From positions 1 through 43,157 of IMG/VR virus record IMGVR_UViG_3300027743_000016: a stretch of DNA of 43,157 nucleotides; one strand, 5' to 3'. Below, one piece after another: positions 1,452 to 39,326 of the stretch; position 1 is the stretch's first letter; the number at the start of each line of letters is the position of its first letter. The notes under the pieces were generated by a model. It searched no databases. It was not told the origin of the DNA and saw nothing but the letters and a program-made list of their open reading frames with translations. The position numbers and the translations under genes are program-made. The stretch comes from a virus.

Positions 1452-1505
1452 ATGACCCCATCAGTGTATCCGAAACCCAGCGCACGGCAAGAGGCTCCGC
1501 AGTGA
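1452..1505 (+). CDS. Putative 17-residue leader peptide coupled to the primase-helicase
   Basis: ATG at 1452 with Shine-Dalgarno AAGAGG at 1441-1446. It encodes MTPSVYPKPSARQEAPQ and stops at TGA 1503-1505, which overlaps the GTG (1502) of the primase-helicase. The nine-base AAGAGGCTC that precedes this start occurs again at 1489-1497, just before the primase GTG, so both starts have the same ribosome site. This arrangement would couple translation. The peptide itself is too short to assess further. Confidence 0.45.
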   Translation: MTPSVYPKPSARQEAPQ

Positions 1506-3661
1506 CCCTCGCCGAGGTCGCCCATCACTTCCCCGACGCCCGCCCGAACGGCAAAGGCTACAAGGCCCGGTGCCCGGTCCACGGCGACCACGACCCTTCC
1601 CTGAGCATCGACCCTGGCGACCAAGGTGTGGTGCTCAAATGCCGCTCGAAAGCGTGCCCCGTCGAGGACATCCTGGCGGCCGTCGGCCTGACCACGCGCG
1701 ACCTGTTCTACGTGCCGCGCGACGCCCCGGCCAAGCCCCAGGGCCGCGCGACCATCGTCGCGACCTACGCCTACACCGACGCCACCGGCACGGTGCTCTA
1801 CGAGGCCGTGCGCTTCGCCCCCAAGGACTTCCGGCAGCGGCAGCCAGACGGCAAGGGCGGCTGGACCTGGTCGATGCAGGGCGTGCGCCGCGTGCCCTAC
1901 GCGCTGGACCGGCTGCAGGGCGAGGAGCTGGTCTACGTGGTCGAGGGCGAGAAGGACGCCGAGGCGCTGTGGGGCCTGGGCATCCCGGCGACCACCAACA
2001 TCGGCGGCGCGGGCAAGTGGACGCCGGAGTGCTCCGCGGCGCTGGTCGAGGCCGGGTGCAAGTATGTGGCGGTGCTGCCCGACAACGACCCGCCAGGCCT
2101 GGCCAGCGGCCGCCAGGTCGCCGACGACTGCACCAAGGCGGGACTGGTGGTCAAGCTAGTGCCGCTGCCAGGGCTGCCGCCCAAGGGCGACGTCAGCGAC
2201 TACCTGGCCACGCACACCAAGGCCGAGCTGGTGGCGGTGGTCAAGGACGTGCCGCGCTACGACCCGCACCGCTCCGTCGCGGCCGACATCCCGCTGGCGC
2301 TGACCAGCCTGGCCGACCTGCTAGACAAGCCAGAGGTGGCCATCGACTACGTGGTGCAGGACCGCATCCCCGTGGCCAGCGTGTGCCTGTTCTGCGCGCC
2401 GCCCAAGACCGGCAAGAGCACGGCAGTGCGCGCGATGGCGCTGGCGGTCGCCCAGGGCGAGGACTGGTGCGGCTGGCGCACCGGCCAGGGCGCGGTGTGG
2501 GTGTTCGCGTTTGAGGACCAGGAGAGCGAGGTCGTCGCCCACTTCCGTCGGATGGGCGCGCAGCCGGACGACCCGGTGCAGTTTTTCTGTGCGTCGTCGC
2601 CGCCGGACCTGATCCCGCTGCTGACGGCACGCGCCATCGCGGAGCGGCCGCGCATGATCATCCTCGACCACCTGGGCCTGGTGCTGGGCATCAAGGACTT
2701 CAACGACTACGCGCAGACGACCACGGCGATGCAGCCGATGATCGCGCTAGCGCGCCAGTCGGGCGCGGCGGTGGTGCTGACCTACCACGCCAGCGCGCAC
2801 AGCCAGCGCGAGGGGCTCGACGCGGTGATGGGCTCGACCGGCATCACGGCGTCGGCCGACAACATCTTTGTGATGAAGCGCGACGGCGCGCAGCGGGTCA
2901 TCGCGTCGACCCAGCGTATCGGGCCCGCGCTGGAGCCGACCGTGTTCGACCTGGACCCGGCCACCGGCACCTACATCCGCCAGGGCACCAAGCACGACCT
3001 GAAGGACCGCGAGATCGGCGACGCCATCCTGGCGTCCCTGCGCGACGCCCCCGAGCCGCTCACCGAAACCGGGCTGCAGGCCGCGGTCACCGCGCGCCGC
3101 ACCGACGCGGTGCGCGTGCTGCGGAAGCTGGTGGGCATGGGCTGGGTCCAGCGCACCGGCCACGGCGGGCGGCACGACCCGTTCCGGTATGTAGTTCCCG
3201 ACACCTCCATCGGGGCACCAACGGGAACCAGTGGGAACAAGAGGGAACCTACTGGAACCTCCAATGGGAACCTCAGGGAACCTGTGGGAACCTTATGGGA
3301 ACCTGCAGGGAACCTGATGGCAGGGGGGACAAATCGGGAACCTGCTGGAAGTTCCAGTGGTACTAGTACAAGTACAAGTACTGTACTTGTACCAACCTCC
3401 CAAGATGGCGTCGAAGACGACGCCGCGCCGCCTGGCGGCGGCTTTACGACCCTGAGCAACGGGGCCACCGTGCCGGTGGACGCCGTGTTGTTCCTGGGCG
3501 ACCTCGATGAGCGCGGCATCACGTTGCGCGCGCCCGCCGAGCCTGGCGACGCCTGCACCTGCACCGACGTCCGACTCACAACCGAGGACCGCGCCAAGCT
3601 CTACCGGTGGCGTCGCCACCTGCCTGTTATCCTTGCGGTCGCGGAGGGCCGCGCCCAATGA
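1502..3661 (+). CDS. CHC2 zinc-finger / TOPRIM primase fused to RecA-like helicase
   Basis: 719 residues, GTG start. The N-terminal CHC2-type zinc site has C24-P-V-H27 and C47...C52. The TOPRIM domain has VEGEKD (about 147-152) and a DND acidic pair (about 194-196). The RepA/RecA-like ATPase has Walker A APPKTGKST (299-307) and Walker B MIILDH ending near 390. A winged-helix-like segment follows (about 520-565). Residues about 574-631 are low complexity (Gly/Thr/Pro/Glu) and encoded by DNA repeats, then a short C-terminal tail. This fusion makes primers and unwinds or loads at the fork, in phages or plasmids without their own polymerase. No DNA polymerase gene was found here, so host polymerase is probably used. 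The DNA encoding 574-631 looks like a replication origin (see repeats). Confidence 0.92.
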   Translation: MTLAEVAHHFPDARPNGKGYKARCPVHGDHDPSLSIDPGDQGVVLKCRSKACPVEDILAAVGLTTRDLFYVPRDAPAKPQGRATIVATYAYTDATGTVLYEAVRFAPKDFRQRQPDGKGGWTWSMQGVRRVPYALDRLQGEELVYVVEGEKDAEALWGLGIPATTNIGGAGKWTPECSAALVEAGCKYVAVLPDNDPPGLASGRQVADDCTKAGLVVKLVPLPGLPPKGDVSDYLATHTKAELVAVVKDVPRYDPHRSVAADIPLALTSLADLLDKPEVAIDYVVQDRIPVASVCLFCAPPKTGKSTAVRAMALAVAQGEDWCGWRTGQGAVWVFAFEDQESEVVAHFRRMGAQPDDPVQFFCASSPPDLIPLLTARAIAERPRMIILDHLGLVLGIKDFNDYAQTTTAMQPMIALARQSGAAVVLTYHASAHSQREGLDAVMGSTGITASADNIFVMKRDGAQRVIASTQRIGPALEPTVFDLDPATGTYIRQGTKHDLKDREIGDAILASLRDAPEPLTETGLQAAVTARRTDAVRVLRKLVGMGWVQRTGHGGRHDPFRYVVPDTSIGAPTGTSGNKREPTGTSNGNLREPVGTLWEPAGNLMAGGTNREPAGSSSGTSTSTSTVLVPTSQDGVEDDAAPPGGGFTTLSNGATVPVDAVLFLGDLDERGITLRAPAEPGDACTCTDVRLTTEDRAKLYRWRRHLPVILAVAEGRAQ
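3223..3341 (+). repeat. Helically spaced GGGAAC iterons inside the primase-helicase gene
   Basis: GGGAAC (one copy TGGAAC) begins at 3223, 3233, 3243, 3253, 3266, 3276, 3286, 3297, 3308 and 3336. Most are followed by CT. Spacings are 10, 10, 10, 13, 10, 10, 11, 11 and 28 bp, near one DNA turn. The spacings are not multiples of three, so the repeats fall in all reading frames and the encoded peptide is not regular. Selection therefore seems to act on DNA rather than protein. Iterons of this kind bind initiator proteins at plasmid and phage origins. Confidence 0.75.
3345..3394. repeat. Palindromes following the iterons; candidate origin
   Basis: CTGGAA-G-TTCCAG lies at 3345-3357. A perfect 21-bp palindrome with 10-bp arms GTACAAGTAC around a central T lies at 3372-3392. 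An outer TGGTAC (3358-3363) pairs with GTACCA (3389-3394), and GTACAA is tandemly repeated at 3366-3377. This stretch is locally A+T-richer than its surroundings. Together with the adjacent iterons it is a candidate replication origin (inference). Confidence 0.65.
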
Positions 3662-3981
3662 GCCACGACCCCACACCTGAGCAGGAAGCCGACATCCTCG
3701 CGATGTGCGCGACGACGCGCGACCCGGAGGCCGAGGCCCGGCTGTGCCGGGAGCGCGTGAAGTTCTGGAACAGCCACGGGGGCCTGCCCGCCGTGGCGCT
3801 GGGCAAGGTCCACACTGTCACGCTGTCGACCGGTGACCGCATCACCGTCCGCACCGACGGCACGACCGTCTGGCTGGGCGTCGGCGCGGAGCTGCGCCAG
3901 CTGGAGCCCAAAGACGTCACCCGGCTCATCGGCGCGCTGGCCCGCACGCCCGCGGCACGCGCCGGACGGAGGGGCGAATGA
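3658..3981 (+). CDS. Unknown small protein, 107 residues
   Basis: ATG at 3658 overlaps the primase-helicase TGA. The protein has an N-terminal acidic helix (PTPEQEADILAM), then a basic helix, then a beta-rich half (HTVTLSTGDRITVRTDGTTVWLG) resembling a small beta barrel, and a basic C-terminus. I do not recognise a family. Its 4-base overlaps on both sides place it firmly in the early operon. Confidence 0.75.
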   Translation: MSHDPTPEQEADILAMCATTRDPEAEARLCRERVKFWNSHGGLPAVALGKVHTVTLSTGDRITVRTDGTTVWLGVGAELRQLEPKDVTRLIGALARTPAARAGRRGE

Positions 3982-4543: not shown

Positions 4544-5373
4544 CGACCCTGCCGCGCCTGGTGCAGGCAGTGCTCGACGCGGAGCGCCTGCCCAAGCCGA
4601 CCACGCCGCCCGGCCCGCGCCTGCGCTGGTTTTTCTGCGGCATCTGCGGGCTGTGGCAGGTGGTCGACTGGAAGCCAGGCCGCGTCGCCTGCAGCCGTGT
4701 CTGCCGCGACCGGCTCCTGCACCTGCGCGCCGCCGAGCGCCGGGGCCCGTGCGTGATGGCCACCTTGAGCGGCTGCCCAGGCTTCCGCCGCGCACGCTGG
4801 CCCAGCTGCAGCCGGACCTGCGCCCAGGCCTACACACGCTGGCGTCGCACGCAGCGCCGCGCCAGGCGCTGGTTGGAGCGCCCGTGCGTGGTCTGCAGCA
4901 CGCCCATCCGCCGCAGACGGTCCTACCCGAGTAAACTGCCGGTCGTCTGCAGCCCCGCCTGCCAGGGCGAGTGGCAACGCTGGTGCTGGCTGGAAGACGC
5001 CGCCGAGGACGTCAGGCGTAAGGTCGCCACCCTGACACCGATGGAGGCCTTCAAGTTCGGCTACGAGGTCGCTGGTGCCCGTGCCTACATCGTCCGCAAA
5101 CGTGTCTTTCGCCGTGAGCGGCAGCCCTATCGCACAAGGCTCGATGGTCCTGATGGGGGGCCGCGTCCACCACGCATCGTCTGGCAAGCTGAGCGCCTGG
5201 CGGAAGGCCGTGGGCTGGTCGGCACGGGCGGTGATGCGGACACAGCCCCTAGAAGGGCCCCTGCGGGTCACCCTGGCGTTTACGGTGACGACGTCGGCCA
5301 TCCGGCCCCCGGACCTGGACAAGCTCACCAGGGCCATCCTCGACGCCCTGACAGCCGTTGTGTGGCTCGATGA
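4540..5373 (+). CDS. Multi-zinc-knuckle basic protein; 3' end overlaps rusA-like gene
   Basis: GTG at 4540 overlaps the previous TGA. The first 180 residues carry paired cysteine clusters: CGIC with CSRVC; C...C with CSRTC; CVVC with CSPAC. Between them are Arg-rich helices, as in DNA- or RNA-binding zinc proteins. A helix TPMEAFKFGYEVAGARAY follows. The frame stays open to 5373, but beyond about 5120 it turns into Gly/Pro/Arg-rich sequence typical of a shadow of the overlapping resolvase gene. The true product may be about 190 residues plus a meaningless tail, or may end by frameshift. Function unknown; possible nuclease accessory or regulator. Confidence 0.6.
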   Translation: MTTLPRLVQAVLDAERLPKPTTPPGPRLRWFFCGICGLWQVVDWKPGRVACSRVCRDRLLHLRAAERRGPCVMATLSGCPGFRRARWPSCSRTCAQAYTRWRRTQRRARRWLERPCVVCSTPIRRRRSYPSKLPVVCSPACQGEWQRWCWLEDAAEDVRRKVATLTPMEAFKFGYEVAGARAYIVRKRVFRRERQPYRTRLDGPDGGPRPPRIVWQAERLAEGRGLVGTGGDADTAPRRAPAGHPGVYGDDVGHPAPGPGQAHQGHPRRPDSRCVAR

Positions 5374-5452
5374 CCGCCAGGTGGTCAGCTTGACCGCCAC
5401 TAAGACCCAGGGCCCACTGCCAGGCGTCGTGGTCACCGTCGAGGCGTGCTGA
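5075..5452 (+). CDS. rusA: RusA-like Holliday junction resolvase
   Basis: 125 residues from ATG 5075; a GTG at 5102 (VSFAVSGSP) is an alternative start closer to the family's usual N-terminus. RusA features are visible: SGSPIAQGS near the start, GKLSAWRKAV, a beta strand LRVTLAFTV, then RPPDLDKLTRAILDALTAVVWLDDRQVV with the paired acidic residues of the active site, and a final PGVVVTVEA strand. RusA dimers cut four-way junctions formed in recombination or replication, often before packaging. It overlaps the upstream zinc-protein frame by 300 bases and sits between replication and terminase genes. Confidence 0.85.
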   Translation: MPVPTSSANVSFAVSGSPIAQGSMVLMGGRVHHASSGKLSAWRKAVGWSARAVMRTQPLEGPLRVTLAFTVTTSAIRPPDLDKLTRAILDALTAVVWLDDRQVVSLTATKTQGPLPGVVVTVEAC

Positions 5453-7224: not shown

Positions 7225-8766
7225 ATGCCCAGCGCCATCGTCAACGGCGTGCGCCAGGTCAAGCACTACTGGAACCCAGTGCAGGGTCTGTTCCTGCAGC
7301 TGAGCGCCGAGGACGCCCCGTTCATCGACCTGGAGGGCGCGGTGCGCGCGGGCAAGACCACGCCGCTGGTGGCCAAGGTGCTGGGCTACTGCGTCGCCTA
7401 CCCTGGCATCCACTGCGCCCTGACGCGCTGGACCCAGGACGGGCTCGACGCCCAGCTCAAGCCGCGCTGGCGCGACTGGTGCCGCGAGAACGGCGTCACG
7501 CTCAAGTGGCACGCCGACGAGGAGTATGACGAGGTCATCACCGACAAGGGCAGCAGCCGCGTCTACCTGCGCGCGCTGAAGGCGTCGGAGCAGACCAGCC
7601 GGTTCGGCAAGCTGGCCGGGCTGACCCTGGCGGTGCTGGGCATCGACCAGGCCGAGGAGGTGCCCGAGGACGTCTATCGCGCCTTCGTGCCCGCGCGCCT
7701 GAGCCAGCCGGGCTACCCGCACCAGGTGCTGCTGACGCCCAACCCGCCCGGCGAGACGCACTGGATCGCCAAGGACTTCCCGGTCAGCAACGTGCAGGCC
7801 GGGCACCGCTACATCCGCACGTCGGTCTACGACAACCGGCACAACCTGGGCGACCTCTACATCCGGTCGCTGGAGCAGGCCTATCCGGCCGGGCACGCGC
7901 TGCGGCGTCGCTTCATCGAGGGCAAGCGCGGCCTGTCGGTGGTCGGCACGCCGGTCTACGCTTCGACGTTCCTGAGCAACCTGCACGTCGCGCGCACGCG
8001 CCTGAACCCGGAGGTGCCGCTGCTGGAGTCGTGGGACTTCGGGCACAAGCATCCGCACGTCACCTGGGGGCAGATCATGCCGTGGGGCCAGCTGGTGGTG
8101 CTGGGCGGCGTGATGGGGGTCGACCAGTTCATCGAGGACTTTGTGCCCGCGGTGCTGGGCATCCGCGCGCAGTGGTTCGGCGGCATCTTCAGCGCCGACG
8201 ACCTGGTCGGCTCCGAGTGGCCCTACGAGATCCAGAGCACGGGCGACCCGGCGGGCGACCAGCACAACAGCCAGGGCACCAGCGTCAGCGCCGCCGACGT
8301 GCTGCGTGAGCACGGCATCGCGCTGTGGACGCTGGCCGGGGCCAACCACCCGGACGCGCGCGACCGCGCCATTCAGCACATCGCGGGCTACCAGCGGCGG
8401 CTGACGAAGATGGGCCCGGCGTTTGTGGTCGACCCCGAGCGGTGGCTGCTGTTCCGCGACGACGGGCCGGTGGCCTCGACGCACTTTGTCGACGCGCTGG
8501 AGGCAGGCTACGTGTGGGACGAGCGCGCCTACACCACGACCACCTCGCCGAACACGCGGCGGCCGCGCAAGGACGGGTTCTACGACCACGGCATGAACAC
8601 GCTGGAGTATCTGGTGCTGGCCTACGGCCCGGCGCAGCCGTCGCGCGTCGACCACGCCAAGGCCGAGCGCCAGGCGGCGGCGCGCGCGCAGCGCGACCTG
8701 GACCCGATGGACCGCACGGTCACCAGCCGCTCACGCTGGGGCGGCAGCGCGCGGCCGCGGCGATGA
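7225..8766 (+). CDS. terL: Terminase large subunit
   Basis: 513 residues, ATG at 7225. ATPase: Walker A GAVRAGKTT with Lys44, Walker B LAVLGIDQAEEV (about 135-146, Asp141), then a coupling motif around LLTPNPPG (169-176). The nuclease domain begins near 268 with ESWDFGHKHP (Asp271), the first metal ligand of the RNase H-like fold. The C-terminus after about 490 is basic and flexible. The size and motifs match PBSX/T4-type large terminases, which cut and pump DNA into the prohead. The following gene starts within its stop codon. Confidence 0.93.
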   Translation: MPSAIVNGVRQVKHYWNPVQGLFLQLSAEDAPFIDLEGAVRAGKTTPLVAKVLGYCVAYPGIHCALTRWTQDGLDAQLKPRWRDWCRENGVTLKWHADEEYDEVITDKGSSRVYLRALKASEQTSRFGKLAGLTLAVLGIDQAEEVPEDVYRAFVPARLSQPGYPHQVLLTPNPPGETHWIAKDFPVSNVQAGHRYIRTSVYDNRHNLGDLYIRSLEQAYPAGHALRRRFIEGKRGLSVVGTPVYASTFLSNLHVARTRLNPEVPLLESWDFGHKHPHVTWGQIMPWGQLVVLGGVMGVDQFIEDFVPAVLGIRAQWFGGIFSADDLVGSEWPYEIQSTGDPAGDQHNSQGTSVSAADVLREHGIALWTLAGANHPDARDRAIQHIAGYQRRLTKMGPAFVVDPERWLLFRDDGPVASTHFVDALEAGYVWDERAYTTTTSPNTRRPRKDGFYDHGMNTLEYLVLAYGPAQPSRVDHAKAERQAAARAQRDLDPMDRTVTSRSRWGGSARPRR

Positions 8767-34598: not shown

Positions 34599-35099
34599 CT
34601 ACGCCACCGGCTCCGGCTTTTCCGCCACCGTGACGCCGCGCTTGATGGTGCGCGCGAAGGCCACAACCTCGTCCCAGGCCGCGCCCGTGACGCCCCGCAC
34701 GATGCGGGAACCCACCGACGTGTAGTAGCCGTTTTCCGGCCCGAACATCCCCGGCAGCGGCCGGTCGAAGGTGATGTGGACGCCGTCGCGCTTGACCGTC
34801 ACGCCGTCGACCACGGTGCCGAACTGTTCCGGCACGATCTCGACGGCCGCGACCTTGCGCGCGAAGTTGTCGCGCTTGATCAGGTCGCCGACCTTCAGGT
34901 CTTCGACGTTGACCGTGTGCCGTTCGGCGATGAAGGCCTGGACCGCCGCGCGCGCCTTCGCGCCCGCCTTGGTCAGCTGGGTCTTATTGCCATTGCAGCC
35001 GTAGCACCGCGTGCCGTGGATGCTGTTGTAGCTGTAGTGCCCCGAACCGAGGCACCGGCTGCAGGTCTGCTTGTCGTAGTTGATGATGTAGCTGGCCAT
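34599..35099 (-). CDS. DnaJ-type zinc-motif protein, 166 residues
   Basis: ATG at 35099 with leader GGGAGACAGACACATG. Residues 12-40 hold CSRCLGSGHY and CYGCNGNK, one DnaJ-like zinc unit (CxxCxGxG then CxxCxG). A beta-rich domain follows with DLKVGDLIKRDNFARKVAAV and a final helix AWDEVVAFARTIKRG. No J domain. Could bind a host chaperone client or nucleic acid. Transcribed from element 35121-35149. Confidence 0.7.
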   Translation of the reverse strand: MASYIINYDKQTCSRCLGSGHYSYNSIHGTRCYGCNGNKTQLTKAGAKARAAVQAFIAERHTVNVEDLKVGDLIKRDNFARKVAAVEIVPEQFGTVVDGVTVKRDGVHITFDRPLPGMFGPENGYYTSVGSRIVRGVTGAAWDEVVAFARTIKRGVTVAEKPEPVA

Positions 35100-35120
35100 G
35101 TGTCTGTCTCCCTCTCTCAG

Positions 35121-35149
35121 TTAGACGGACCTACCGCTGGGTATGTTCC
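35121..35149 (-). promoter_or_regulatory. Repeated promoter/operator element B
   Basis: Leftward: GGAAC, 17 bp, CGTCTAA. The core is inverted relative to most copies: CCCAGCGGTAGG on the transcribed polarity. Leader to the ATG at 35099 carries GAGGGAGACAGACAC. The stop codon of the upstream gene (35131) lies inside the core. Confidence 0.75.
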
Positions 35150-35406
35150 CGCAGCCAGGCGTTCAGCTCGTCTTCGGTCGGCCCGGCGCAGTGGTTGCAC
35201 TGGACGTGGTAGAGCCAGTCGTCCGTCTGGGGCGCGCGGCTGACCTGCACCGACCAGCGTGACCGCCCCGAGCCCTTGCGCGTCTCGGCGGCGGCTTCAT
35301 GCGCCAGGGGCAGCCGGAGGCCCTGGTGGGCCGCCTGGCGACGCCCGCAGGCATCGCACAGGTGGAAGGCGACGCCGTCGTGGTATCTGAAGACCCAGCT
35401 GACCAT
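35131..35406 (-). CDS. Zinc-ribbon protein, 91 residues
   Basis: ATG at 35406, 2 nt after the previous stop. It has CDACGRRQ near residue 17 and CNHC near 73, a split CxxC...CxxC zinc site. The middle is basic (AAAETRKGSGRSRW). The C-terminus DELNAWLREHTQR ends within element B, the last codons being formed by the element's inverted core. No family recognised. Confidence 0.65.
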   Translation of the reverse strand: MVSWVFRYHDGVAFHLCDACGRRQAAHQGLRLPLAHEAAAETRKGSGRSRWSVQVSRAPQTDDWLYHVQCNHCAGPTEDELNAWLREHTQR

Positions 35407-35408
35407 TA

Positions 35409-35954
35409 CTAAAGCACCCGCACGCGCAGCCCGTCGGCTGCCGCGCCCTCGATGATGGCCCCGGCGAACCGGTGCTCGACCGCGCGGCTGGAGCCCAGGC
35501 GCGGCCCGCTCTGCAGGTGGGCGTCGAGCCAGTCGAGCCCTTCGGCCGTCTGGCCGGAGAACAGCAGCACGCTGTCGCCGACGCCGGTCACCTCGATGTC
35601 GTGCGCCGCGGCCTTCACCGTGATGCGGATCCAGGCCTGGCGCTTGGCGCGGCCCTTTTCGACCGGCACCGCCAGCACCGGCAGCTGCTTTTCTTCGGCG
35701 ACCTGCACCAGGGCCGCGGCGAGGCCGACGTCCTGGGTGTCGACCGACAGCGCCGTGCGGTTGTGGCCGAACTGCAGCTGCGCCAGGCGCGCCCCCCAGC
35801 GGGCCTCGACCTCTGCGCGGTTCTGCTGCAGCAGCCAGGCCTGCGCCTGCGCCTCCTGGTTGTCGCCGAAGAACTGCCGCGCCGAGCGGCCGCTGACGTA
35901 ACCCTTCCAAAGCCCTCCGAACACCTGAACGACGCCGATGCTGTATTTGGCCAT
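35409..35954 (-). CDS. Unknown protein, 181 residues
   Basis: ATG at 35954 with leader GAGGGAGACAGACAC. N-terminal segment YSIGVVQVFGGLWKGYVSGR, helical centre QAQAWLLQQNRAEVEARWGA, then alternating strands (RQAWIRITVKAAAHDIEVTG). Mixed alpha/beta, no catalytic motif noticed. Driven by element 35976-36004. Function unknown. Confidence 0.7.
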   Translation of the reverse strand: MAKYSIGVVQVFGGLWKGYVSGRSARQFFGDNQEAQAQAWLLQQNRAEVEARWGARLAQLQFGHNRTALSVDTQDVGLAAALVQVAEEKQLPVLAVPVEKGRAKRQAWIRITVKAAAHDIEVTGVGDSVLLFSGQTAEGLDWLDAHLQSGPRLGSSRAVEHRFAGAIIEGAAADGLRVRVL

Positions 35955-35975
35955 GTGTCTGTCTCCCTCGTATCC

Positions 35976-36004
35976 TTAGACGACCCAGCGGTGGGTTTGG
36001 TTCC
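35976..36004 (-). promoter_or_regulatory. Repeated promoter/operator element C
   Basis: Leftward: GGAAC, 17 bp, CGTCTAA. Relative to the consensus one base is inserted after GGAAC and one is lost before CGTCTAA, so the spacing stays 17. This compensated change suggests the spacing is under selection. Confidence 0.8.
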
Positions 36005-36205
36005 CTAGAGCGACTCGTATTCGGCCTTGCGGCTGAGCGGGCCAGGGTCGTGCGTCTCGTTGTAGCGCCGCGCCAGGGCGTGCGCTTCGGCTTCCGTCTC
36101 GACCCTGGCGCGGATGACGTGCCGCGGGCCCGCCCCCGGCTCCCGGCCGTTGGGCCAGGCCGGGTTGGGCTTCCACCAGTCGCGGACGAACACCCGGAAC
36201 GCCAT
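36005..36205 (-). CDS. Small protein, 66 residues
   Basis: ATG at 36205 in a TGATG overlap with the upstream gene. Sequence starts MAFRVFVRDWWKPNPAWPNG and contains RARVETEAEAHALARRYNET, a strand-helix unit resembling short DUF-type phage proteins with an 'E.EA...A...N' helix. Stops right before element C. Function unknown. Confidence 0.7.
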   Translation of the reverse strand: MAFRVFVRDWWKPNPAWPNGREPGAGPRHVIRARVETEAEAHALARRYNETHDPGPLSRKAEYESL

Positions 36206-36588
36206 CACCGACCCTCCGTCGGTGACAGCGGCGAGTAGCTGCTGGACAGCTTCAGGTCGCGCTGCAGCTCGTTGAAGAGCGCCTCGTTGCAGCTTTCCGC
36301 CGCGCGGACGCCCGTCGGGGACGTCTCGTCGCGGTGGTAGATGGTGATGAACCAGTAGCTGCCCCAGCGCCGCGCGCGGGTGTGTGAGAGCTTCGGGCTG
36401 GCCAGCGCCTCGCGGACCTTCGCCGGGTGCTCCGCGTGCTGCTGCGCCTCGACGCACAGCCTGCAGGGCTTGTCGGTCGGGCCCTGGTTGACCAGGTCGC
36501 CGAAGAAGTTCTGGCGGTAGGCGTCGAAGTGGGCCGCGCAGGTGACGAGCTGGGCATTGAAGCGGTTGGTGTAGAGCGTGTTGTTCAT
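36205..36588 (-). CDS. Cys-rich unknown protein, 127 residues
   Basis: ATG at 36588 with leader GAGGGAGACAGACAC. CAAH near 17 and CRLC near 43 could form one zinc site; an aromatic strand RRWGSYWFITIYHRDE follows. C-terminal helix NEALFNELQRDLKL. Driven by element 36609-36638. No family recognised. Confidence 0.7.
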   Translation of the reverse strand: MNNTLYTNRFNAQLVTCAAHFDAYRQNFFGDLVNQGPTDKPCRLCVEAQQHAEHPAKVREALASPKLSHTRARRWGSYWFITIYHRDETSPTGVRAAESCNEALFNELQRDLKLSSSYSPLSPTEGR

Positions 36589-36608
36589 GTGTCTGTCTCC
36601 CTCTCCCT

Positions 36609-36638
36609 AGTATACGACACCCAGCGGTGGGATGTTCC
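36609..36638 (-). promoter_or_regulatory. Repeated promoter/operator element D (TATACT type)
   Basis: Leftward: GGAAC, 17 bp with core CCCACCGCTGGG, then CGTATACT. TATACT replaces the TCTAA box, giving a sigma70-like -10. A leader with GAGGGAGACAGACAC leads to the ATG at 36588. Confidence 0.8.
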
Positions 36639-36657
36639 CCACCGCCGGGCCTGTCGT

Positions 36658-37116: not shown

Positions 37117-37137
37117 GTTCTGTCTCCCTCTGTATGC

Positions 37138-37166
37138 TTAGACGGACCCAGCGGTGGGTTTGTTCC
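37138..37166 (-). promoter_or_regulatory. Repeated promoter/operator element E (consensus copy)
   Basis: Leftward: GGAAC, 17 bp containing CCCACCGCTGGG, CGTCTAA. The same bases, read in frame by the upstream gene, encode NKPTAGSV and stop at TAA. A 21-nt leader with GAGGGAGACAGAAC leads to the ATG at 37116. Confidence 0.85.
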
Positions 37167-37308: not shown

Positions 37309-37572
37309 CTACTTACCCTCCAGTTCGTCGCGGCCGAGCAGGTCGAGCGCCTGGGACCAGGCCCCGCGGGCGACCCACACCAGGTGTTCGGCCCGTTCGC
37401 CGACGACCCAGGGGGCCACCTTCGCCGAGTGGTTACGGCGCTTGGTCACCAGGCCCTTGAAGCTCGATGCGGCCTTCTGCACCTCGACCACCTGGGTGGC
37501 CAGCTTCACCGTCAGCCGGACGTAGCGTTGCGCCTTGGGCAGCTTCACGTTGAGTGCGTATGCGTTGGTCAT
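37309..37572 (-). CDS. RYV-family protein, copy 2, leaderless candidate
   Basis: ATG at 37572 exactly 6 nt after the CGTCTAA of element F; no Shine-Dalgarno. 87 residues. Paralogous to 39336-39587: shared pattern KL....RYV....L......VQ.AA...K.L.TKR, then W.V...... LV..AR.A...ALD.LGRD. The fold is probably mixed helix and strand. Function unknown. Both paralogs follow leaderless elements. Confidence 0.75.
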   Translation of the reverse strand: MTNAYALNVKLPKAQRYVRLTVKLATQVVEVQKAASSFKGLVTKRRNHSAKVAPWVVGERAEHLVWVARGAWSQALDLLGRDELEGK

Positions 37573-37578
37573 GTTCAG

Positions 37579-37607
37579 TTAGACGGACCCAGCGATGGGT
37601 TAGTTCC
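37579..37607 (-). promoter_or_regulatory. Repeated promoter/operator element F (leaderless type)
   Basis: Leftward: GGAAC, 17 bp with core CCCATCGCTGGG, CGTCTAA, then CTGAAC and ATG. The core on the opposite strand is exactly CCCAGCGATGGG, the form also seen in element K. Confidence 0.8.
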
Positions 37608-37921: not shown

Positions 37922-37940
37922 GTTCGTATCTCCTAGAACC

Positions 37941-37969
37941 TTAGACGGACCCAGCGGTAGGTTAGTTTC
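37941..37969 (-). promoter_or_regulatory. Repeated promoter/operator element G
   Basis: Leftward: GAAAC (one change from GGAAC), 17 bp with CCTACCGCTGGG, CGTCTAA. The AAACCC of the consensus is TAACCT here, so the upstream gene stops early (…ATRN) instead of reading through to the tail. Confidence 0.7.
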
Positions 37970-38237
37970 GGGTCGCCCAGGCAGCGATGTCGGCCTGGGT
38001 CGCGGCCTGTTTCCGCTCCCAGAAGGCGCGGATGCCGCTGGCGACGTTGACGTGGTGGTCGAGGTCGAGCAGGGCTTCGCGCTTACTGCGCCGCCACTCG
38101 CCTCCGACCGATGGGGCCTGGCCGTCGTGCCAGCGCCAGCCGTCGGCCGTCTGTGTGACCCAGTAGCGGTCGTTCACGATGTACTCGCCAGAGTTCACCC
38201 GGCGACTCGTCAGCTTCAGCCCTAGTAGCTTGGTCAT
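37962..38237 (-). CDS. GWRW-family protein, copy 2, leaderless candidate
   Basis: ATG at 38237 lies 6 nt after the CGTCTAA of element H, without a Shine-Dalgarno. 91 residues. Contains GWRW, then SVGGEWRRSKREALLDLDHH. The gene at 39126 has GWRW, then SVGGEWRSTRREAVLDLEAY. Beta then helix; likely a small binding domain. This copy has an extra C-terminal helix. Function unknown. Confidence 0.75.
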   Translation of the reverse strand: MTKLLGLKLTSRRVNSGEYIVNDRYWVTQTADGWRWHDGQAPSVGGEWRRSKREALLDLDHHVNVASGIRAFWERKQAATQADIAAWATRN

Positions 38238-38243
38238 ATCAGG

Positions 38244-38272
38244 TTAGACGGACCCAGCGGTGGGTTTGTTCC
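38244..38272 (-). promoter_or_regulatory. Repeated promoter/operator element H (leaderless type)
   Basis: Leftward: GGAAC, 17 bp with CCCACCGCTGGG, CGTCTAA, then CCTGAT and ATG (38237). The element also encodes the NKPTAGSV tail of the upstream peptidase-like protein. Confidence 0.85.
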
Positions 38273-38984: not shown

Positions 38985-39104
38985 TTACAGGCTCTGCAGC
39001 CACGCGATGAGCGCAGCGGCGTGCGGGCGGGCCTTCGCGGGCTGGCCGACGGCGAGAAACGCGAAGACCTTGGCGATGTGCGTCGAAGCTGTCTGTCTGT
39101 CCAT
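38985..39104 (-). CDS. 39-residue helical peptide
   Basis: ATG at 39104 with leader GAGGGAGACAGAACA. Sequence starts MDRQTASTHIAKVFAFLAVG and ends AALIAWLQSL; two amphipathic helices around GQPAKARPH. Below common size cut-offs, but the promoter element I and its standard leader point directly at this start. Confidence 0.7.
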   Translation of the reverse strand: MDRQTASTHIAKVFAFLAVGQPAKARPHAAALIAWLQSL

Positions 39105-39125
39105 TGTTCTGTCTCCCTCGATTAC

Positions 39126-39154
39126 TTAGACGGACCCAGCGGTGGGTTTGTTCC
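39126..39154 (-). promoter_or_regulatory. Repeated promoter/operator element I
   Basis: Leftward: GGAAC, 17 bp with CCCACCGCTGGG, CGTCTAA, then a leader with GAGGGAGACAGAACA. Also encodes the NKPTAGSV tail of the upstream GWRW-family protein. Confidence 0.85.
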
Positions 39155-39326
39155 GGGTCGCCAGGTAGGCCTCCAGGTCGAGGACCGCCTCGCGCCGGGT
39201 GCTGCGCCATTCCCCTCCGACCGAGGCGTCCCCGTAGAGGGACCAGCGCCAGCCGGACGTGTGGCGCTCCACTAGGCAGCCGTCGGCGTGATAGGTGCCT
39301 GCGGAGAGCTTGTGCAATGTGATCAT
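39126..39326 (-). CDS. GWRW-family protein, copy 1, NKPTAGSV tail
   Basis: ATG at 39326 with AGGAG 6 nt upstream; an ATG at 39332 is too close to the ribosome site. 66 residues. Shares GWRW..., SVGGEWR and REA[VL]LDL with 37962-38237. Ends RNKPTAGSV inside element I. The parallel end ...ATRN* of the other paralog, truncated by element G, indicates that gene and element were duplicated together. Confidence 0.75.
   Translation of the reverse strand: MITLHKLSAGTYHADGCLVERHTSGWRWSLYGDASVGGEWRSTRREAVLDLEAYLATRNKPTAGSV

Follow-up and report, generated by a model that had tools for sequence, protein, structure and literature searches.

Genome and replication region

The window, that is, the whole stretch of DNA analysed, comprises 43 157 nucleotides. 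Because an exact direct repeat of 127 bp occupies its two ends (1–127 and 43031–43157) and the relatives L001 and L002 span the terminal-repeat junction, the record is apparently a whole genome, closed as a circle of approximately 43 030 bp. The primase-helicase gene runs from 1502 to 3661 on the plus strand and, with a GTG start assumed, encodes a protein of 719 residues comprising a Toprim-like primase region, a RepA-like AAA_25 helicase and a winged helix. Next to it is a DUF1376-like gene (994–1335). Genes for an ERF single-strand annealing protein (41145–42113) and a RusA resolvase (5075–5452) frame the replication region, as expected of a recombination-assisted phage.

An intergenic element, GGAACAAACCCACCGCTGGGTCCGTCTAA, was observed at least nine times on the minus strand of the minus-strand small-gene block (35082–35150, 35937–36005, 36571–36639, 37124–37166, 37565–37607, 37927–37969, 38230–38272, 39087–39155 and 39580–39622), several of them followed by GGGAGACAGACACATGG. 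A small hairpin is present in the GGAACAAACCCACCGCTGGGTCCGTCTAA element, which may serve as a repeated promoter or as a 5′ leader.

Domain structure of the primase-helicase

The protein belongs to PHROG 239 (DNA primase/helicase). The Pfam AAA_25 family was matched over its cut-off at residues 269–431 (E value 6.9e-23). Weaker matches were obtained to a Zn ribbon (residues 14–39) and to Toprim (residues 145–238), with the Toprim_2 and Toprim_3 scores falling under their curated cut-offs. When the protein model was searched with Foldseek, the top match was T7 gp4, over approximately 485 alignment columns. Superposition of the model on RSF1010 RepA (PDB entry 1g8y) gave a Z-score of 23.5 and an r.m.s.d. 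of 3.0 for 207 aligned residues. A helicase domain of the AAA_25/RSF1010 RepA fold is thus present by both Pfam and structural match.

The helicase also has a C-terminal DNA-binding domain, in the form of a winged helix predicted in the AF2 model at residues 497–567 (nucleotides 2990–3202, plus strand), which is the proposed iteron-binding domain. It comprises helices at 497–515, 522–528 and 533–546 and strands at 549–551 and 561–563, with pLDDT values mostly of about 80–93; weak helix–turn–helix matches (MarR, IclR and HVO_A0261_N) cover residues 508–554. The model obtained by folding the winged helix in isolation, with no alignment as input, was of poor quality and was set aside. Codons 568–646 (3203–3439, plus strand) follow and encode a tail that is predicted to be disordered (AF2 pLDDT below 50). 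The repeat array described below lies over this tail, directly C-terminal to the winged helix in terms of the encoded protein. The array is able to overlap the gene because this stretch encodes only a predicted disordered tail behind the DNA-binding domain.

Repeat array and palindromes

The first-pass annotation had reported ten GGGAAC-type repeats, mostly 10–11 bp apart and out of codon phase, and had concluded that they are selected at the DNA level. The repeats were confirmed at 3223–3348 as nine copies of GGGAAC and one of TGGAAC. Their GGAAC cores start at 3224, 3234, 3244, 3254, 3267, 3277, 3287, 3298, 3309 and 3337, and a degenerate core, GGAAG, follows at 3347. With the degenerate core included, the core-to-core spacings are 10, 10, 10, 13, 10, 10, 11, 11, 28 and 10 bp, eight of the ten being 10–11 bp. 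The array is thereby divided into three plus-strand blocks: 3223–3259 (cores 3224–3254, 10 bp spacing), 3266–3314 (cores 3267–3309, 10–11 bp spacing) and 3336–3357 (core 3337 and the degenerate core). The helical phasing proposed in the annotation holds inside the blocks (3224–3254, 3267–3309 and 3337–3347) but not from block to block, as the intervening gaps of 13 and 28 bp are not whole turns.

Elsewhere in the 43 kb, GGGAAC occurs on the same strand only two further times. As a control, 300 first-order Markov genomes were generated, in which the maximum was three GGGAAC per 172 bp. When synonymous codons were permuted across the gene so that the protein stayed unchanged, no more than five copies of GGGAAC were obtained in 5000 trials, compared with the nine observed. 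The GGAAC cores are spread over all three codon phases of the gene, and the codons used in the array are rare in the rest of it: Gly is encoded by GGA or GGG at 8/8 positions in the array versus 10/60 elsewhere in the gene, Glu by GAA at 4/4 versus 2/27 and Pro by CCT at 4/4 versus 5/50. By these three measures, the repeats are under DNA-level selection.

Two palindromes in a locally A+T-richer stretch, also noted previously, were both found after the repeats. The one at 3345–3357, CTGGAA-g-TTCCAG (CTGGAAGTTCCAG), is symmetrical at 12 of 13 positions, includes the degenerate core and consists of two iterons face to face. The other, at 3358–3394, is a GTAC-rich inverted repeat with six GTAC and exact 11-nucleotide arms (3366–3376 and 3382–3392), proposed here as an opening or hairpin element. 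It lies inside a dip in G+C content to 42% at 3350–3399, compared with about 70% in the flanks.

Close relatives

Loss of the repeats from relatives that keep the protein was named in the first-pass annotation as an outcome that would count against it. Viral relatives with a 51–59% identical protein were found to retain both the short phased repeats and the GTAC array, at the same location. The repeats are of the GGGAACGAG type in L003, L004, L005 and L007; in L006 and L008 they are GGTTCC at 10 bp spacing, i.e. mostly in reverse orientation, together with GGGAACC. The GTAC array (GTACGTACGTAC) is likewise kept with its local G+C dip, which was checked in L003, L006 and L008. The peptide encoded over the array varies among these relatives, whereas the DNA words do not. 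Retention of the repeats while the encoded peptide changes, including their reversal in L006 and L008, argues that selection acts on the DNA. The window and the near-identical L001 and L002 show no differences past approximately position 1860, so that this comparison is uninformative about local conservation, and a narrower alignment-based scan for relatives gave no usable additions.

Arrays at AAA_25 helicase 3′ ends

Viral contigs were scanned, without regard to genes, for three GGTTCC at 10 bp spacing. Pattern-scan counts here and below are of matches listed, include near-duplicates and describe the sample only. Among the viral matches listed, many divergent loci have a dense GGTTCC array no more than about 150 bp away from an AAA_25 helicase 3′ end, whereas sparse GGTTCC triples are almost never found near such an end. 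Beyond the close family, the helicases found in this way share 14–22% identity with the window protein and carry different primase modules; the AAA_25 match was present in all 21 that were aligned. The usual layout consists of the codons of the C-terminal domain, the stop codon, three GGTTCC one turn apart and then inverted copies, often accompanied by a hairpin such as GGTTCC-CCCCCTTTAGGGG-GGAACC. In most relatives the array is just beyond the stop codon, outside the coding region and in both orientations. Among the matches listed in bacterial genomes, a helicase 3′ end was near 5/28 dense arrays versus 0/92 sparse ones (Fisher p = 5e-4).

In a homology-first analysis, helicases were gathered by profile from approximately 1000 bacterial genomes. 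A strict array was defined as any 6-mer present in at least five copies, in both orientations and with at least two spacings of 9–11 bp. With profile seeds that were mostly motif-selected themselves, strict arrays were found at 24/59 AAA_25 helicase 3′ ends, compared with 5/662 3′ ends of other genes and 1/440 windows from the same loci, an enrichment at helicase 3′ ends with a Fisher p of about 5e-24. Around 60% of the homology-found, more distant AAA_25 helicases had no array passing the strict test. An array behind AAA_25 helicases is thus common, not universal. The length of the C-terminal extension did not differ between array-positive and array-negative helicases.

The iteron word is specific to the gene; GGGACA, GCGACA, GGTGGA, TGGGAA, CCGGCA, GCGTGACA and GCGGAAGTA were among those found. 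Some helicase genes contain their array and the repeats dictate odd peptides, such as HPSHPSHPS in L318 and SHVSHVSHM in L312. Tails of this kind, which also include STPSTPSTP, SVTGVTSVTNVT and NGANGAINANTANGANG, were observed at the helicase 3′ ends of L318, L312, L307, L328 and L333. These low-complexity tails come from DNA iterons and are not protein features.

GenBank phages with an array include EBPR siphovirus 5, Rhizobium phages RHph_Y3_1 and RHph_X2_25, Streptococcus Javan273, Microbacterium Namago and a fecal contig, and AAA_25 was verified in five of the array-positive GenBank phages. In RHph_Y3_1, a cultured temperate phage, 13 TGGGAA sites follow the helicase gene after a gap of about 306 bp. 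The array was weak in SilentRX and was not found in Mae-JY30, phi673, Ent2, Schimmels22 or MW202444. On the complete plasmid pRS11DPr4, an AACCTC array lies behind an AAA_25 and Toprim gene, and no other Rep is annotated in the gene table used, which is incomplete. Behind the AAA ATPase genes of three further plasmids, only weak repeats were seen in L339 and no array was seen in Streptomyces L340 or pATHE01 (L341).

Two other groups of phage contigs carry the word in a different setting. In L013, L014, L018, L024, L030, L031, L039, L058, L063, L064, L083, L087, L114 and L120, about ten GGTTCC/GGAACC sites are arranged in a conserved intergenic layout; judged by eye, these contigs carry a terminase gene, and L018 and L120 also have MoxR-like and metallopeptidase-like genes. 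In the records searched for this group no AAA_25 over the cut-off and no DnaB_C were found, with one sub-threshold AAA_25 in G009. The presence of dense GGTTCC arrays where neither family was found indicates that the word is usable by something else. In L026, L038, L073, L077, L079, L090, L091, L093 and others, a triple GGTTCC at 10 bp spacing lies inside a conserved gene, where it encodes QKEPLGTSGN, and no larger array is present. Either chance combined with common descent or an unrelated site would account for this triple.

Assignment of the array

We consider it likely that the array supplies the iterons of a phage replication origin that lies inside the 3′ end of the gene for its own initiator and is bound by the winged helix of the helicase. 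The first-pass annotation had likewise read the locus as a candidate origin, a reading that is supported by the retention in close relatives of the repeats and the GTAC element over a differing peptide; origin activity and helicase binding at the array are inferred. The GC-skew check that it had proposed was uninformative, with no clean switch at the array, a cumulative minimum at approximately 20.6 kb and the maximum at the end of the record.

A linker of low complexity that grew by slippage, with the repeats arising at the protein or mutational level, would account for a short tandem unit and for the predicted disorder of the encoded tail. It is at odds with a 10–11 bp period that is out of codon phase, with the rare codons and the same-protein shuffles, with relatives that retain the DNA word with other peptides and in reversed orientation, and with the placement of the array outside the coding region and in both orientations in most relatives. 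This explanation is already largely refuted and we regard it as highly improbable. An equally slight probability is given to a partition, packaging or recombination site that is no origin. Repeat arrays elsewhere do act as centromere-like or terminase sites, but the present arrays, whether in phages or on plasmids, recur beside the AAA_25 replicative helicase, and the terminase gene of the window (7225–8766) is 3.5 kb away.

Two further explanations are unlikely rather than negligible. In one, the array is regulatory, an operator for example, and through it the winged helix or a phage regulator controls transcription of the replication operon and not initiation. Winged helices are commonly transcription regulators, initiators often autoregulate, and the domain does have its weak MarR/IclR-like matches; however, the array is at the 3′ end of a gene and not at a promoter, the next ORF (3607–3981, same strand) overlaps the end of the gene, and the 3′-end placement is repeated in many operon contexts and on a plasmid. 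In the other, the array is an origin but is initiated by a different protein, for which the candidates are the DUF1376 protein next door and a host factor, the helicase being no more than recruited. The adjacent DUF1376-like gene and the GGTTCC arrays of phages in which no AAA_25 gene was found are in keeping with this. Against it, a similar DUF1376 protein was found only in the window, L001, L002 and duplicates, and the iteron word varies with the helicase while the array remains fixed at that gene's 3′ end, as would be expected of a private binder linked to the array rather than of a host factor common to all. Of the two initiators suggested in the first-pass annotation, the winged-helix part of the primase-helicase is thus favoured by arrays at AAA_25 3′ ends in many unrelated replicons, whereas the DUF1376-like neighbour is disfavoured, since no DUF1376 match was obtained in the scanned upstream ORFs beside the arrays of L003, L006 and L008.

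Comparison with known replication systems

The origin of phage lambda, with four 18 bp iterons and an A+T-rich stretch, is inside the gene for the initiator O, which is neither a helicase nor a primase. The window array resembles it in position, lying inside the helicase gene, with the helicase as the putative initiator; it differs in having about ten words of 6–7 bp with a 10–11 bp period and in being associated with a primase-helicase. Phage P4 alpha unites primase, helicase and origin-binding functions in one protein and acts at short iterons in ori and crr. The candidate in the window would share this one-protein design, whereas P4 alpha has a helicase of another family and another iteron and origin layout. 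The overall architecture, a Toprim-like region with a RecA-fold helicase, resembles that of T7 gp4, which differs from the window protein in that it is not known to carry a C-terminal winged helix or to use an iteron origin.

The C-terminal dsDNA-binding domains of the initiator helicases SaPI Rep and SCCmec Cch2 recognize short iterons directly downstream of their own genes, the Cch2 origin being putative (PMC7581432). As in these systems, multiple short iterons are found at or after the 3′ end of a helicase gene. SaPI Rep and Cch2 belong to the DUF927 or D5/Primase_Cterm families, however, whereas the window helicase is a RecA-fold ring of the RepA type (AAA_25), and their iterons are downstream of the gene whereas those of the window are inside it. 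By analogy, the window array would work like the SaPI Rep/Cch2 origin without being a member of that group. The rep operon of pRN1 likewise requires sequence located downstream (PMC4234260). In RSF1010, a separate RepC melts oriV for the loading of RepA, the best-studied relative (PMC8965321). The window protein has a helicase domain of the RepA fold, and the functions concerned, helicase, primase and iteron recognition, are those of RSF1010 RepA, RepB′ and RepC; unlike RSF1010, where RepC is separate, it has the putative primase, the helicase and the DNA-binding domain in one polypeptide and seems to combine the RSF1010 roles in one. AAA_25 proteins were stated to lack any described function in a study of another such phage helicase, published in 2022 (PMC8965321). 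No prior description of an iteron layout for AAA_25 or RepA-like helicases was found in the open-access literature, although one may exist elsewhere.

Proposed mechanism and implications

In the mechanism that we propose, the winged helix (residues 497–567) would bind the GGGAACC repeats, one per helical turn, and several primase-helicase subunits would thereby be aligned along one face of the DNA. The neighbouring A+T-richer GTAC inverted repeat may then open or form a hairpin. The domain content and the analogy with SaPI Rep and Cch2 suggest that the ring helicase (RepA type) in this polypeptide could load there with no separate loader and that the N-terminal Toprim domain could prime.

With somewhat less assurance than for the window itself, we favour the wider proposal that, in phages, prophages and plasmids, many primase-helicases of the AAA_25 family act as initiators that bind the origin and load themselves. 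Each would have a private word of 6–8 bp, repeated once per helical turn at its own gene's 3′ end and often inside the gene. If this is true, these loci would constitute a family of mobile-element origins across several bacterial phyla, and repetitive tails such as HPSHPSHPS would be explained as the shadow of DNA sites. The same loci would also provide many naturally occurring pairs of a winged helix and a candidate DNA word, which could be used for learning recognition rules, and a shortlist of plasmid and phage origins for vectors. If the helicase itself binds the iterons, these proteins would be one-piece initiators with the roles of primase, ring helicase and origin binder united, and for many phages, prophages and plasmids the origin could be located directly from sequence.
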